Shown in pieces: positions 33,225-56,094 of a DNA stretch of 58,670 nt. Every line of letters starts with the position of its first letter. The stretch's first letter is position 1. Below the pieces are notes generated by a model that saw nothing but the letters and a program-made list of their open reading frames with translations, did no database searches and was not told the origin of the DNA. The position numbers and the translations under genes are program-made. The DNA lies in assembly GCF_015523185.1 (NCBI RefSeq), contig NZ_WAKV01000019.1, forward strand, positions 1 to 58,670, given 5' to 3'. The stretch is from Thermococcus sp. GTDB lineage: Archaea; Methanobacteriota_B; Thermococci; Thermococcales; Thermococcaceae.

Positions 33225-34871
33225 ATGGGGTGCATTGATGGAACGCCGCTCGATGGTTGGAAAATATTCTCCGCTAAAGCAGGCTGTCGGGCATTTAAAG
33301 GGAAAGATAGAATCTATCTAATCGAATGGACGGACTATTATGTCGAAGGGGAGAACAACAGTCTCAAGACAGTTCTAATCAACGGCAAACCCGCGAGAAT
33401 GCTCAAAAACGGACTCTTTGTTGTATCCTTCGGGAATTTTATTGGCCTTTCTAAATTGGTTCTTCTGTTTGAAGGCGGCAAAACAACAAAAGTTCCCGTT
33501 GAGGTTCTTTCGCTCAAAGTTTCAAGGATGTACCCAGAGCTTCTCTCGTCATTTGAAGGCTACGGTATTGAAAGGCTCTCACGCCTCCAGAACGCTTTTG
33601 TAGGGACATTAACAGGCGAAATTCTTCGGTATTCGAGTTCCATCCCCTTTCAGCTGGAGTCTCCCACTGGGTTCTCGACCTTGGAAAGCGATGAGCCGAT
33701 CAACGAACTCTTCGCCTACCACTTCCTTCGCTCGAACGGTGAAAGAATCGTCGAGGCCTTTGAAACCGTACTCCGCAGAATGAAGAGGAAGCTTGTGGTT
33801 GAAGGGGAATGGATGAGAATAGACGAAGTGGATGAGATAACCCCTGAGACCCTCCTGTCCATCGTCCAGCACCCAAAATACCTGGCTCCCGCGGGGGAGG
33901 GTGTTCTGATAGCGGATTACCTGAACGGCTATACCCCAACTAGGGTCTTGGGATACAGGAAGTACGAGAGCTTCGACACTCCCGAGAATCGGTTTGCCAA
34001 GTATTTCCTCAACTTGCTAATTGAGTGGAGCGAGCGCGTTCTTGAGGCATTTGGTGGCGAGAGAGATGCAGACATCGAAAGGATACAGGAACTCCTCGGG
34101 GAGCTTGAGTTTATAAGGAGCAATGGACTCTGGGAGGACATTGGCGAGATGACGTTTTTTCCATACACCTCACAAACCCTTCTGAAGGGTGACGGCTACC
34201 GTGAACTGCTGGAGCTTTACAGGGAATTCACTTCCCACCTTCCTTTCTTCGAGGAGCTGCAGAGGGCGATAGACAATAAGGACATCGCCAAGCTGTACGA
34301 GTACTGGGCCTTCTTCAGGCTCGTTGACGAACTCGGAGAGATTCTTGGAAAGAAAGAGCTCAAAATCCACGTGCTTCCTGCAGGTGAGCTCTCTGAGAAA
34401 GGAAATGTTTACGCTGAATTCGACAACGGCTGGAGGCTCTACTACAACAAGCGGCTAACCCCAAGGAGGTGGAGCTACTCTGTGACGCTCAGACCAGACT
34501 TCTCGCTCTTTAACGGAAATCCCTCAAAGAAAAGCACGGAACTCATTGGAGTCTTCGATGCAAAGTTCAAGCTTGAGGTGGTGGATGAGCCAAAAGAGAT
34601 AGAAAAATTCGACGAGGAAACTGAAACCGCAGAAAAAACGGGGAATTATGGGACCTGGGCGAAGCTGGAGGATGTTTACAAAATGCACACGTACCGGGAT
34701 GCTCTTGGGGGTAGGTTTGCAGTCGTGGTTTATCCCGGGAAGAAAAGTCTATTTTTTGACGTAAAAGAAGGTAGGGTTAAGAAATACACCCTGGATGAAG
34801 TTTTGATTGGAGAATTAAGCGGCGTTGGTTATCTGAGGTTTGTTCCGGAGGTGGAAAAATGTGATTGGTGA
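33225..34871 (+). CDS. McrC-like nuclease subunit (DUF2357, PD-(D/E)XK)
   Basis: The 548-residue protein has the layout of McrC-type partners of McrB ATPases: an N-terminal beta-rich region, a helical DUF2357-like middle and a C-terminal PD-(D/E)XK nuclease. The nuclease residues visible are D425 (LRPDFSLF) and D445-A-K447 (VFDAKFKLE). Such subunits cut modified foreign DNA when the AAA+ ring translocates. ATG 33225 follows GGTGC. It overlaps the mcrB-like gene by 11 bases. Confidence 0.82.
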   Translation: MGCIDGTPLDGWKIFSAKAGCRAFKGKDRIYLIEWTDYYVEGENNSLKTVLINGKPARMLKNGLFVVSFGNFIGLSKLVLLFEGGKTTKVPVEVLSLKVSRMYPELLSSFEGYGIERLSRLQNAFVGTLTGEILRYSSSIPFQLESPTGFSTLESDEPINELFAYHFLRSNGERIVEAFETVLRRMKRKLVVEGEWMRIDEVDEITPETLLSIVQHPKYLAPAGEGVLIADYLNGYTPTRVLGYRKYESFDTPENRFAKYFLNLLIEWSERVLEAFGGERDADIERIQELLGELEFIRSNGLWEDIGEMTFFPYTSQTLLKGDGYRELLELYREFTSHLPFFEELQRAIDNKDIAKLYEYWAFFRLVDELGEILGKKELKIHVLPAGELSEKGNVYAEFDNGWRLYYNKRLTPRRWSYSVTLRPDFSLFNGNPSKKSTELIGVFDAKFKLEVVDEPKEIEKFDEETETAEKTGNYGTWAKLEDVYKMHTYRDALGGRFAVVVYPGKKSLFFDVKEGRVKKYTLDEVLIGELSGVGYLRFVPEVEKCDW

Positions 34872-36600
34872 TAAGTCATTTGGGACTGGGATTAATAGGG
34901 CAAGGAAAGTTTACATGGAAATAACAAAACCTCCTGGCAAGATCTACACGGAGAACCATGTTGGTCGTTTTCTCTGGTCCCCTGCAGATGGAAAGTATTG
35001 GAATGGTCGCTATGGGAAGATTGGCCTCTTGAAGGTGGGCGATATAATTCTCCATGATGTTCATGGAAAGATTGTCGGATATTCAGTCGTAGCAGAGCCC
35101 CCTAAAGAACTAACAAAGGAGAAAGTTATAGAACTTTTTGAAAAAATTGGGATCTGGAATGAAAAGTACAAAGAATTTGCAGAAAGCTGGTTCAAAAAGT
35201 CTCAAAATGGAAAGTTTTATGTTGTTAAACTTAGTGACTTTAGGGAACTAGATAGACCTATTGGATACACTAAAGTCACAGGTTTACCAGCTCCATGGGA
35301 ACTTCAAGGGGTGTATCTGATCGACCTACCTCCTGAAGTCCTGAAGAATCTGAAGATAGCCCAGAGAGGCACTGATACAAGGTTTGTTAAGTTGGATGAA
35401 TATTTTGCCTCAAAAGGTTATCTCTATCCCTCCCATTTAGTTTCCCAGTTCTACACCGCCCTCAAAACTAAGGGCTTTGTTATCCTCTCGGGTCTCACCG
35501 GGACCGGGAAGACAAAGATCGCCCAAGAACTCGCGGAACTGCTGGACGATTCAGGGAATAACTTCCTCTTCCTCGCCGTTCGCCCGGACTGGCGCGATTC
35601 CAAGGCTTTGCTTGGATACTACAACCCACTAACGGGAGAGTATCATAAGACTAAACTCCTCGACTTCATCCTGGAAGCCAAGAGGGACTACGAGCAAAAC
35701 CGGGAGAATGCAAAGCCCTACTTCGTCCTCCTAGATGAGATGAACCTCGCCCATGTCGAGTACTACTTTGCAGATTTCCTAAGTATTTTAGAGAGCGGAC
35801 GAGAGGAGGAAGGCGAGTACAAAGGCTTCACCAGAGAGGCAATACCCCTCCACGAGAATGAGGAGATTACAAAGAAACAGGGAATTCCCAAGAACCTCCG
35901 CTTCCCGCCGAACCTCTACATCATAGGAACGGTCAACATGGATGAGACAACTTACGCATTCAGCCCAAAGGTTCTCGACAGGGCCTTCGTTGTGGAGTTC
36001 CACGATGTTGATCTTGAAGACTATCCTCCGGCATCGTCCCATAGTGAAGAGGCCGATGGGATTAAAGACGCCCTCAGAACCGTCATTCTACAAGATTTGG
36101 CCGGTCCGGAAGGAATGTTCCTCGCTCGCTCAAAGGACGGGATAAACAAAGCTGTAAGAGAATTCAAGGGTGAGCATCCAGACTACTGGAATATCCTGAT
36201 AAACCTCAACAAAGCCCTCGAACCCTACGACATGCACTTTGGCTACCGTGTCGTCGACGAGATTGCCCTCTTCTTCAATAGCGCAAAGGAAAGCGAGGAG
36301 GCGGGCATTGTTGAATTCGAGGGTGATGACGAAATCTTCGACCTAGCTCTCCTGATGAAAGTCCTGCCCAAGTTCCACGGCAACAGGAGGAGGCTTGAGA
36401 AGCCCCTGAAGGAAGTGTTGAGGCTCTGCCTCGTGAAGGGCTCAGGCCTCAAAGTTGACGAGCTTAGAAGTGCGGATATCGTTGAAATGCTGGGAGACTG
36501 GGAAAACCAGACAACAAACTTCCGCTTCAAACACACCGCCAGGAAAGTCCTTCGCATGCTCAGGCAGCTCTATGAGATAGGCTTTGCGAGCTTCAGCTAA
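34861..36600 (+). CDS. McrB-like AAA+ GTPase with N-terminal EVE/YTH-like reader domain
   Basis: The 579-residue protein joins two modules. Residues 1 to about 175 look like an EVE/YTH (PUA-fold) domain that reads modified bases (FLWSPADGKYWNGRYGKIG, KVGDIILHDV, GKIVGYSVV). After about residue 195 comes a McrB-type AAA+ domain: Walker A G211-LTGTGKT, Walker B/DEMN (VLLDEMNLAHVEYYF), sensor TVNMDE and an arginine-finger helix KVLDRAF. YTH-type reading of N6-methyladenine is known for a Thermococcus McrB. GTG 34861 has GGAGGTGG six bases upstream. The reader domain is far A/T-richer than the ATPase part. Confidence 0.85.
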   Translation: MIGDKSFGTGINRARKVYMEITKPPGKIYTENHVGRFLWSPADGKYWNGRYGKIGLLKVGDIILHDVHGKIVGYSVVAEPPKELTKEKVIELFEKIGIWNEKYKEFAESWFKKSQNGKFYVVKLSDFRELDRPIGYTKVTGLPAPWELQGVYLIDLPPEVLKNLKIAQRGTDTRFVKLDEYFASKGYLYPSHLVSQFYTALKTKGFVILSGLTGTGKTKIAQELAELLDDSGNNFLFLAVRPDWRDSKALLGYYNPLTGEYHKTKLLDFILEAKRDYEQNRENAKPYFVLLDEMNLAHVEYYFADFLSILESGREEEGEYKGFTREAIPLHENEEITKKQGIPKNLRFPPNLYIIGTVNMDETTYAFSPKVLDRAFVVEFHDVDLEDYPPASSHSEEADGIKDALRTVILQDLAGPEGMFLARSKDGINKAVREFKGEHPDYWNILINLNKALEPYDMHFGYRVVDEIALFFNSAKESEEAGIVEFEGDDEIFDLALLMKVLPKFHGNRRRLEKPLKEVLRLCLVKGSGLKVDELRSADIVEMLGDWENQTTNFRFKHTARKVLRMLRQLYEIGFASFS

Positions 36601-36618: not shown

Positions 36619-36663
36619 CCCTTATAACTTACCCGGGGGTAAGTAACTTACGGTGGGGTAAGT
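36619..36663 (+). promoter_or_regulatory. TATA box and tandem 18-bp palindromes before the ATPase
   Basis: CCTTATAAC (about 36619-36627) is a TATA box. Two palindromes follow, offset by 19 bases: ACTTACC-CGGG-GGTAAGT at 36627-36644 and ACTTAC-GGTGGG-GTAAGT at 36646-36663. The second includes the ribosome-binding site and reaches the TTG start codon. Bound protein would block initiation directly. The product at 36663 or an unlinked factor may be the regulator. Confidence 0.7.
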
Positions 36664-37769
36664 TGCTGTTCGACCTGCAACCGAAAACCCGGCGTGAGGA
36701 CTTATACGACAGGGAAAATGAACTGAGGGAGTTTCAGAACGCGGTGAACTTGGGGGAAAATCTGATCCTCCTGCTCGGCATAAGGCGCCTCGGAAAAAGT
36801 TCCCTCTTAAATGTTGCCCTCGCAGAATCGGAAATGCCCTATGCAAAAATAGATGTTCGCTCCCTCTACTTCACCCACGGTTCAATACCTCAAGAGATTC
36901 TTGCCCGAAAAATCCTTGATTCCCTCCTCGCAACTGTCTCGGGGCGTAAATCACTAAGGCTTAAGCTTGAAAAGGTTTTGAGCTCCATCCGCGGGCTGAG
37001 GATTTCAGGCCTGAGCGTGGAGTTCGATAGGAAGCCTGATCTCGCCGAGATCCTGGAAAAGATAAGCTCTTGGGCTGAAAACGAGAACCTAAGGGCAATA
37101 ATTGCCTTCGATGAGGCCCAGTATCTCAGGCTTTCGGGGATTCGCTACGACGGCCTGATAGCCTACGCGGTGGACAATCTGCCCGGGATAACCTTCGTGC
37201 TAACTGGCTCTGAGGTTGGGATGCTCCACGACTTCCTTGGCCTGGAAAATCCTAAAAAACCCCTCTTTGGCAGATACGCGAGGGAGATAGTGCTTCAAAG
37301 GTTCAGGCGGGAGGAGAGCGTGGACTTCCTTGCTAGAGGTTTTGAAGAGGTTGGTATTGAACCGGGTAGGCAAGAGATCGAGGAGGCCGTTGAGAGGCTC
37401 GACGGTATAGTCGGCTGGCTCACGATGTATGGTTATCTCCGTGGAGTTAGGGAACTTTCCCACTCCGAGGCCATGGATGAGCTCTTCAACATGGCCGAAA
37501 AGCTAATCTGGGAGGAGCTTTCATCCCTTATCCAGAACAGCAGGAGGTACGGGGTTATATTGAAGGCAGTCGCCATGGGAAACGTTAGGTGGAGCACCAT
37601 AAAGGAGTACGTGGAGTTTAAGCTGGGGCCGGTGAACGACGCGAAGTTTTCCATCCTCCTCAAGAATCTCCTCAAGTACGGCTACCTTGAAAAGAGAGGC
37701 AACGAGTATTCAATCCCAGATCCGGTCGTTAAGGAAGTCGTGAAGAACCTTCAACTTACCCTCTGGTAG
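36663..37769 (+). CDS. Archaeal ATPase (STAND/Orc-like P-loop family)
   Basis: The 368-residue protein belongs to the archaeal ATPase group common in Thermococcales. The start LFDLQPKTRREDLYDRENEL is characteristic, Walker A is GIRRLGKSSLL, Walker B is IIAFDEAQYL, and VLTGSEVGML is the sensor region. A winged-helix-like C terminus follows. Start codon is TTG with GGTGGGG upstream. The function of the family is not known; members are often variable between strains. It follows the McrBC-like pair. Confidence 0.85.
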   Translation: MLFDLQPKTRREDLYDRENELREFQNAVNLGENLILLLGIRRLGKSSLLNVALAESEMPYAKIDVRSLYFTHGSIPQEILARKILDSLLATVSGRKSLRLKLEKVLSSIRGLRISGLSVEFDRKPDLAEILEKISSWAENENLRAIIAFDEAQYLRLSGIRYDGLIAYAVDNLPGITFVLTGSEVGMLHDFLGLENPKKPLFGRYAREIVLQRFRREESVDFLARGFEEVGIEPGRQEIEEAVERLDGIVGWLTMYGYLRGVRELSHSEAMDELFNMAEKLIWEELSSLIQNSRRYGVILKAVAMGNVRWSTIKEYVEFKLGPVNDAKFSILLKNLLKYGYLEKRGNEYSIPDPVVKEVVKNLQLTLW

Positions 37770-53742: not shown

Positions 53743-56094
53743 TTGAAACTCAATGAACTTGTCGCCCTCGGCGGGCTCCTCCACGACATCGGAAAGCCCG
53801 TGCAGAGGGCAAAACGGTATTCGGGCGACCACTCGGAGCAGGGAGCGGAGTTCTTGGGACAACTAGCCAGGGAAACGGGGAGAGAAGAATACGGGCTCCT
53901 CGCGCTTTTCTCGGCTTTCCACCACAAGAAACACTTCAAAGAGGCCAGAATCAGGGAAACTGTCAAAAGGATCAACTCTGAACGCTTTGGGCTGAGCGAA
54001 GAAGACATCATGCAAGCCCTGTGGATAGTTTACGAGGCCGACAACCTATCCTCGGCAGAGCGGGAAGAAGGAGAACCGGAGAACATAAGGCCACTTTATT
54101 CAATCTTCAACAGGGAAAGGGCCTATTTTCCCGTTGCCCTCGAATTCGGTCAGGAATTGCCGGTTCCCACGGAAGTTGATACCTTGACAAAACAGCACTA
54201 CGAGAGAATAGTGAAAGGCGTTGAGGAAGAGCTCAAAAAGACTGAGCTCAGGGTTGATAGAATACTCCCGGTTCTTGAGAAGCACCTCACCTTCGTCAGC
54301 TCGGTAACCTCTAAGGGAAACGTCATCTCGCTCTACGACCACATGAGGATGACATCCGCTATAGCTCTGGCCATGCTGAAGGCCGGCTGTACAGCCGGGG
54401 ACATAAAAGCCGGAAGGTGCAGGAAGGAAAAGAGGTTTCTCATTATTGAAGGTGACTTTTCGGGAATACAGGACTTCATCTACGGGATAAGCGGAAAGGG
54501 AACCCTCAAGTACCTCCGCGCAAGGAGTGCATATCTGGAGCTAATCGCCTGGGACATCGTCCTCGAAATCCTGAGAAGGCTCGGCCTCACGAGGGCCAAC
54601 GTTATATTCAACGCCGGCGGGCATTTCCTTATCCTCGGCCAGAACACGGAGGAGGCTATAAAAGAGCTCGAAGGCATAAGGAAGCACGTTGTCGAGTGGC
54701 TCTACCGCGAATTTGACGGAAAGCTCTACTTGGCTTTGGCGTGGGAGGCTGTGAGCGGGGAAGAGCTCGGACGGAAAGGCGAGAAAAACTTCTTCGCCGA
54801 GGCACGGACGAGGCTAAAGAGAAAGCTTGACATCAGGAAGTTGAGACGCTTTGAAGAAGTTGAAGGCCTATTCAAAGAGCCAAAAGCCAGTGAAAGGCTT
54901 GAGGAGTGCGCGGTCTGTGGAAAGGAAGTTCCCGAAAATCTGCTTGAACCCTTCAAGCTGAGCGACGATTCAAGTGTAAGGGCCTGTAAAACCTGTAACG
55001 AGCTCGCAGAGCTTGGCAAGAATCTGCCCAAGGTTAAAGGCTTTGTCATGGACCGGAAGACCCACGAGGGTGAGGACATAACGAAAGGCCCGTTCAGGCA
55101 CTTCATACCCTACATCGAGGACCCAATACCGCGGGGTGAAGCCCTCCTCCTCAAGAACAGCCTCGACGTCCCCGGGAACCTTCAGGAAACTATCGAGTTC
55201 ATCCCGTATTTAGTGGCCGATTACTTCAAGCCAAGCAAGGAGGGTGAGCGTGTAATAGCGGACTTTGAAGAGCTCACAGGGGAGGCAACGGGCACGAAGA
55301 GACTTGGTGTCCTCAAGGGCGACGTGGACAACCTCGGATTGTTCTTCAGAGACATGGACAGTCCCTCAAAGCTCGCCACCGCCTCGCGCTTCATGGACTA
55401 CTTCTTCAAGGCCTACCTGAACGAGATTATCAGGGGCAAGTTTGAATATTTGATGGGAGATATTCCATCACTCGGGGACTGGCCAAAAGAGCCTGACATA
55501 GTGGTGGTTTACGCCGGTGGAGACGACTTCTTCATAGTTGGCGCGTGGAATCAGGTCTTCGAGCTGGCCTTCAGAGTAAGGGAGGCCTTCAGGGCCTACA
55601 CCGGGAAAGGGATGACGCTCTCGGCGGGATTGGGTTACTTCCATCCCAAGACGCCAATCTACAGGATGGCCGATGTCGTCTCGGAGAGGCTTGAGAGGGC
55701 GAAAAACGAGGGGAAAGATAAGGACAGGGTCTTCGTGATAGAGAGAACCGCTCCGGAAGGATTCCCAATCGCTTACCGCTGGGGGAAGTACGAGGAGCTC
55801 TGGAAGACCTACAAGCCAAGGGTTTACGCCGGAAACGGCAGACTGGTGAAGGAACTTGAGTCAAAGAAAGGCCTTCTGTGGAGAATTCTTGAGCTCAGGG
55901 AGCTCTACGTCAGGGACCCGGAGAGTGTGAAGTGGGCTTACCAGATGGCATATCTCCTCGGTAGGCACAAGCTTTCCGACCTGTTCCCAGAGCTCGTCGG
56001 GATAGATGCAGAGGCCGCCCTGAAGGGTGAGCCGCAGCCGATCTACTGGATTGATGGAGTCTTGAAGGTTGTTTTGATGGCCGTTAGGGGGTGA
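53743..56094 (+). CDS. csm1: Cas10/Csm1, type III-A effector subunit
   Basis: The 783-residue large subunit has an N-terminal HD nuclease (H14-D15 in LLHDIGKP, HSEQGAEF), two palm domains, a zinc ribbon (CAVCGKEV...CKTCNE, about 389-425), and the cyclase motif G592-GDD in VVYAGGDDFFIVG. It degrades single-stranded DNA and makes cyclic oligoadenylates when target RNA binds. Start is TTG with GGTGA four bases upstream. The length is close to the Thermococcus onnurineus Csm1. Confidence 0.96.
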   Translation: MKLNELVALGGLLHDIGKPVQRAKRYSGDHSEQGAEFLGQLARETGREEYGLLALFSAFHHKKHFKEARIRETVKRINSERFGLSEEDIMQALWIVYEADNLSSAEREEGEPENIRPLYSIFNRERAYFPVALEFGQELPVPTEVDTLTKQHYERIVKGVEEELKKTELRVDRILPVLEKHLTFVSSVTSKGNVISLYDHMRMTSAIALAMLKAGCTAGDIKAGRCRKEKRFLIIEGDFSGIQDFIYGISGKGTLKYLRARSAYLELIAWDIVLEILRRLGLTRANVIFNAGGHFLILGQNTEEAIKELEGIRKHVVEWLYREFDGKLYLALAWEAVSGEELGRKGEKNFFAEARTRLKRKLDIRKLRRFEEVEGLFKEPKASERLEECAVCGKEVPENLLEPFKLSDDSSVRACKTCNELAELGKNLPKVKGFVMDRKTHEGEDITKGPFRHFIPYIEDPIPRGEALLLKNSLDVPGNLQETIEFIPYLVADYFKPSKEGERVIADFEELTGEATGTKRLGVLKGDVDNLGLFFRDMDSPSKLATASRFMDYFFKAYLNEIIRGKFEYLMGDIPSLGDWPKEPDIVVVYAGGDDFFIVGAWNQVFELAFRVREAFRAYTGKGMTLSAGLGYFHPKTPIYRMADVVSERLERAKNEGKDKDRVFVIERTAPEGFPIAYRWGKYEELWKTYKPRVYAGNGRLVKELESKKGLLWRILELRELYVRDPESVKWAYQMAYLLGRHKLSDLFPELVGIDAEAALKGEPQPIYWIDGVLKVVLMAVRG

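Follow-up and report, generated by a model that had tools for sequence, protein, structure and literature searches.

The mcrC-mcrB locus of the window (the whole stretch of DNA that was analysed, 58,670 nucleotides of a Thermococcus contig) is very probably a McrBC system with exchangeable readers, and the A/T-richness of its reader does not date the arrival of that domain. The pair belongs to type IV McrBC by its sequence: McrC with DUF2357 and PD-(D/E)XK domains lies beside McrB with an AAA+ domain of the Nx(x)D kind. mcrC corresponds to 33225–34871, and the whole gene falls inside the interval 33225–36600 of the first-pass annotation. Among the Pfam matches, PF09823 (McrC residues 68–332, E 1e-34) and PF04411 (E 9e-15) are well above the cut-off, and PF07728 in McrB (E 5e-7) is above it. 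D...DAK of the McrC nuclease, read from the translation, is apparently intact. Across 15 motors, the McrB columns GLTGTGKTK, LDEMN, and NMDE are conserved; N, D, and E are invariant, and the middle residue is nearly so. The start of mcrB is most likely GTG at 34861 rather than TTG at 34840, because the CCGGAGGTG motif precedes this GTG and is kept in related loci. In each of the 15 loci listed, mcrB is preceded by either CCGGAGGTG or CCGGGGGTG. The two genes probably constitute a working-looking archaeal system destroying DNA with foreign chemical marks. The only PADLOC label for McrB is the phage-defence candidate PDC-M26A.

Table 1. Parts of the mcrC-mcrB locus, in window coordinates.
Feature	Position	Strand	Basis or remark
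McrC N-terminal part (aa 1–140)	33225..33644	+	unrelated alleles alternate among related loci
McrC core: remaining DUF2357 (finger) and PD-(D/E)XK nuclease	33645..34871	+	PF09823, PF04411
Ribosome-binding-site-like motif (CCGGAGGTG region), inside the mcrC end, 5' of the mcrB start	34846..34852	+	
mcrB, 579 aa, GTG start overlapping the mcrC stop	34861..36600	+	translation, alignment with related loci
EVE/YTH-like reader domain (McrB aa 12–168), A/T-rich	34894..35364	+	profile match, Foldseek, composition
Reader-motor junction	35365..35445	+	blastn arms, GC3 change point
AAA+ motor: Walker A GLTGTGKT, Walker B FVLLDE, signature N-M-D-E (NxD type)	35401..36597	+	PF07728, invariant columns

Carriers of the EVE reader are scattered on the motor tree, with 8 changes, and a single EVE clade is rejected (p about 1e-138). 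For the nine shared taxa, the motor data reject the EVE tree (AU p 2e-10), and the EVE data reject the motor tree (AU p 6e-4). The domain-wise phylogenies that the first-pass annotation had proposed as a check are strongly incongruent (AU p ≤ 0.001 both ways). A swap can be seen between G039 and G042, which are sister species of the window genome. Their readers are 99.5% identical, while their motors are 79% and their McrC N-termini 41% identical. Around the mcrB start, DNA identity is near 100% between positions −280 and +680, and this ~0.95-kb tract holds exactly the reader; the rest of the locus shows mostly 60–90% identity. The converse case is G055 and G064, whose motors are 93% identical and whose readers are unrelated. 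The incongruent trees and the G039/G042 tract show that reader exchange among Thermococcaceae lineages is real. The G039/G042 type of pattern agrees with ordinary homologous recombination acting on the conserved flanks. A special recombinase is not needed, and none was found. Conservation at synonymous sites shows nothing striking at the exchange borders.

The motor is present in about one third of 115 Thermococci genomes, and the EVE reader in far fewer. About 15 loci are located at one syntenic site, in the order iorA-iorB-mcrC-mcrB-(ATPase)-deacetylase-like gene. DNA homology to reader-less relatives is interrupted from the mcrB start (34861) to 35373–35397 (blastn arms). The stretch between the mcrB start and the motor is filled by unrelated domains, single or stacked. 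EVE stands alone in the window and G029. It is combined with N1 in G048, G053, and G110, with an N2-like domain in G035 and G094, and with N3 in G059; in G080 an N2-like domain is likewise ahead of EVE. N1 alone is seen in G093 and G036, and N2 alone in G039 and G042. Further reader types beyond these combinations are carried by the same motor. Many unrelated readers, alone or stacked, were thus returned when the same motor was searched for with other readers, as had been suggested. The same EVE reader is also found in G031 on an NxxD, TgMcrB-type motor. Besides, the AAA+ motor is interrupted by an extra domain in 12 loci, and two insertion sites are used. These inserts are ~155–187 aa long, low in GC3, and located after McrB residue 229 (L066, L067, L069–L076) or residue 283 (L078, L080). 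No Pfam family was matched by the other readers or by the two insert types tested. An EVE reader in G028 (L085, 3403–3855) is broken by several stop codons and adjoins a fragment of a TgMcrB-type motor.

The first-pass annotation had named the reader EVE/YTH-like. The reader profile matches the N-terminal domain of Staphylothermus marinus McrB (PDB 6n0s, E 1e-7). Foldseek with the reader model also gives 6n0s (E 8e-6), then 6yex (VcaM4I, E 5e-4), followed by weaker matches to ASCH, EVE, and YTH entries. The model is of low confidence (three-sequence alignment, mean pLDDT 55; pLDDT 34 in single-sequence prediction), and the profile match to 6n0s is independent of it. No Pfam EVE or YTH match was obtained in any of 10 reader orthologues. 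The profile match and the PUA-like fold match of this weak model support the assignment, and EVE/YTH-like can be considered as a fair name. The S. marinus domain, the best match in both sequence and fold, is distant from the reader, with 18% identity in the fold alignment. In VcaM4I, an EVE-HNH enzyme, the EVE domain is the modification sensor of a restriction enzyme (PMC7897488). It differs in being a single polypeptide with an HNH nuclease and without an AAA+ motor.

Based on the signature N-M-D-E, the McrB motor is placed in the NxD branch of McrB GTPases. Members of this branch have N-x-D in place of N-x-x-D, usually with E or D as the next residue. According to the 2024 census, none of them had been characterised at that time; fused variable domains and inserts into the GTPase domain are reported there in general (PMC11090510). 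The window pair shares with NxD-branch systems the overlapping mcrC-mcrB, the DUF2357 and PD-(D/E)XK partner, and the AAA+ domain with N-x-D then E. The literature covered contains no description of locus-level reader exchange at a single syntenic site. CoCoNuT systems have long coiled coils and/or an inactive McrC nuclease with HEPN or another extra nuclease. This identity was rejected, as Pfam shows no coiled coils, HEPN, or extra nuclease, and D...DAK of McrC is kept. McrBC of Thermococcus gammatolerans (PDB 6ut3–6ut8; PMC7680126) is from the same genus and has the same general architecture, but the TgMcrB motor is of the NxxD type and has only 25 bits to the window McrB. The TgMcrB N-domain is not matched by the window-reader profile; it is reported to bind m6A DNA, according to a citation in PMC7641849. 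T. kodakarensis has McrBC1/McrBC2 pairs (PMC13385129).

The G+C counts that first drew attention to the reader are exact: 18 per 60 bases at both 35101–35160 and 35161–35220, and 35 at 35581–35640. The sole place in the 58.7-kb window with at most 36 G+C per 120 bases is 35099–35278, and the lowest 300-base G+C (0.37) falls in 34847–35497. The shift is at synonymous sites, with GC3 of 0.38 in the reader and 0.64 in the motor; the expected reader GC3, from its amino acids and the codon usage of the motor, is 0.61. An abrupt change near codon 190 had been described, and the best GC3 change point is codon 194 (35443), with a likelihood interval of codons 185–197. GC3 is 0.37 before this codon and 0.65 after it, and none of 2000 permutations reaches this change. 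The mcrB break is the strongest (z = 6.5; next 4.9) of all 105 ORFs with a length of 300 aa or more in 20 sampled contig stretches of the same genome (290 kb).

The low GC3 is not specific to this reader. Reader GC3 is below motor GC3 in 33 of 33 loci, with orthologous or unrelated readers (median gap 0.19). The domains inserted inside the motor are also below the motor in all 12 cases. The variable McrC N-terminus is weakly lower (29 of 31, median difference 0.07), and the start of mcrC in the window (33225–33644) is mildly A/T-rich (GC 0.45). The N3 readers are nearly ameliorated (GC3 0.55–0.58). The reader had been called compositionally foreign, and this description cannot be kept, since all orthologous EVE readers are A/T-rich and unrelated readers are too. 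Equal A/T bias in the orthologous readers had itself been named as what would speak against a recent arrival, and composition was rejected as a clock for a recent swap. Because all modules of the pool are low in GC3, whatever their origin, A/T-richness marks a variable module, not a recent arrival. A caution follows for other loci: an A/T-rich domain need not be a recent import.

The window reader is 81% identical to that of G048 and 79% to that of G080. The corresponding values are 82% and 81% for the motor, and ~84% for McrC. The three parts look equally old together relative to these two alleles. Compared with them, the window is without the second, upstream reader domain. Species markers place the window with G039/G042/G046, but its motor and McrC core group with G048/G080/G093 (the motor also with G070), and grouping of the motor with the sister species is rejected (AU p = 0.0002). 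As both the motor and the McrC core group outside the sister species, the motor cannot be assumed to be resident. Fourfold divergence is lower in the reader than in the motor against G059 (0.35 versus 0.60, p 0.002) and G053 (0.33 versus 0.55, p 0.01). The reader is also weakly less diverged against G048 at these sites (p 0.03, uncorrected). Based on the values for G059 and G053, some later exchange of the reader alone is possible. The closest motor, in G070, is 89% identical. In its contigs C173 and C63, the sequence between McrC residue 522 and motor residue 36 is lacking; the break is exactly across the reader, and the G070 reader is therefore absent from the data. Such an assembly break is as expected if readers vary within the population.

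The first-pass annotation proposed that the reader was recently swapped onto a resident motor. The exchange of readers in this family agrees with it; "recent" and "resident motor" do not hold here. A recent swap in which the resident motor of the window genome received only a new reader, from a foreign and A/T-rich source, is improbable. Exactly such swaps did occur in the sister species G039/G042, the GC3 break at the domain junction is sharp, and comparison with G059 and G053 makes the reader younger than the motor. These facts have to be set against the A/T bias common to all orthologous readers, the similar divergence of reader, motor, and McrC from G048 and G080, and a motor that is not that of the sister species. 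Also, no relative of the window reader was found in the phage records and viral contigs searched. It could instead be considered that fast evolution under weak constraint alone accounts for the A/T-richness, through codon usage or a 5'-end effect, with no relation to exchange. The low GC3 of unrelated readers and inserts, and weakly that of the McrC N-terminus, would agree with this. It is doubtful, though less so than the recent swap, as exchange is shown independently and the near-amelioration of the N3 readers fits residence time better than position. A general 5'-end effect is excluded because mcrB is an outlier among 104 other genes of the same genome.

Import of the whole mcrBC allele (McrC, reader, and motor together) by recombination between conserved flanking genes has somewhat less than an even chance. 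The disagreement of the motor and McrC core with the species markers argues for it, as does an mcrBC of the same family on the T. barophilus MP plasmid pTBMP1 (L263, 5666–10221), a possible exchange vehicle. The same disagreement would arise if the sister species were the exchangers; the G042 motor groups with another genus, and the direction of exchange cannot be told. Import of the whole allele also leaves the internal GC3 break unexplained.

The preferred reading, exchangeable readers with an A/T-richness that does not date arrival, can be put as follows. By analogy with McrBC biology, the EVE-type reader would bind incoming DNA at a modified base, nucleotide hydrolysis by the McrB AAA+ hexamer would be stimulated by McrC, and the McrC nuclease would cut the DNA. 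The sequence comparisons show the reader to be a member of a pool of modules that are exchanged at one fixed site of the chromosome in Thermococcaceae. In neighbouring lineages it is replaced, most likely through homologous recombination in its conserved flanks, the mcrC 3' end and the start of the motor. The association of the window reader with its motor probably dates back at least to the divergence from the G048 and G080 alleles. The lasting A/T bias might reflect long residence in the circulating pool. Alternatively, it might reflect less GC-biased conversion, if variable modules are rarely paired with a homologue.

In type I systems, the target-recognition domains of HsdS are shuffled by homologous recombination between conserved parts. 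Specificity modules are swapped here in a similar way, although the shuffled module is a predicted modification reader on a type IV motor protein. It can be speculated, with about equal weight for and against, that an A/T-biased reader pool is recombined into slots of one fixed McrBC locus and a second, NxxD motor, as the type IV counterpart of HsdS shuffling, and that low GC3 is the mark of modules excluded from homologous pairing. The slots would be the McrB N-terminus, the two sites inside the AAA+ domain, and the switching McrC N-terminus. Type IV systems meet phages with changing DNA marks, and a fixed motor with interchangeable readers would be a direct way to keep up. The main interest of the locus lies in the naturally occurring range of readers on a single motor; the breakpoints of the exchange events are visible in the sequence. 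The ~30 loci are ready-made motor/reader pairs for comparing the base preferences of different readers on a constant NxD motor.

Sequence comparison of McrC indicates that its residues 1–140 are a second switching module. These residues alternate between unrelated alleles, while the remaining 400 residues are up to 89% identical. Identity jumps at around codon 140, for example from 35/33% to 89/85/83% in G069, and the tree of residues 1–140 differs from that of the rest of McrC. Switching is seen in L050, L061, L066, L067, and other loci. By position, this part is probably the "scaffold" region described for TgMcrC, a domain that contributes to contacts within the McrC dimer and with which modelled DNA clashes (PMC7680126). 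Based on these two properties, the McrC N-terminus may be a further specificity or compatibility slot. One N-terminal type is found with EVE in 5 of 5 loci; 3 of 5 independent pairs agree and none disagrees (p 0.25), and with these five pairs a strict coupling of reader and N-terminal type is not demonstrated. EVE is also combined with other N-terminal types (G053, G094, G029, and G110).

Downstream of mcrB, an archaeal ATPase gene (PF01637 with MCM_C) is located at 36663–37769, and the palindrome GTAAGTAACTTAC lies just 5' of it. This ATPase is seen in about 10 related loci (69–91% identity) and was not found in the G048 and G080 loci. Elsewhere in the window, a Cas10/Csm1-like gene (type III CRISPR) is located at 53743–56094.
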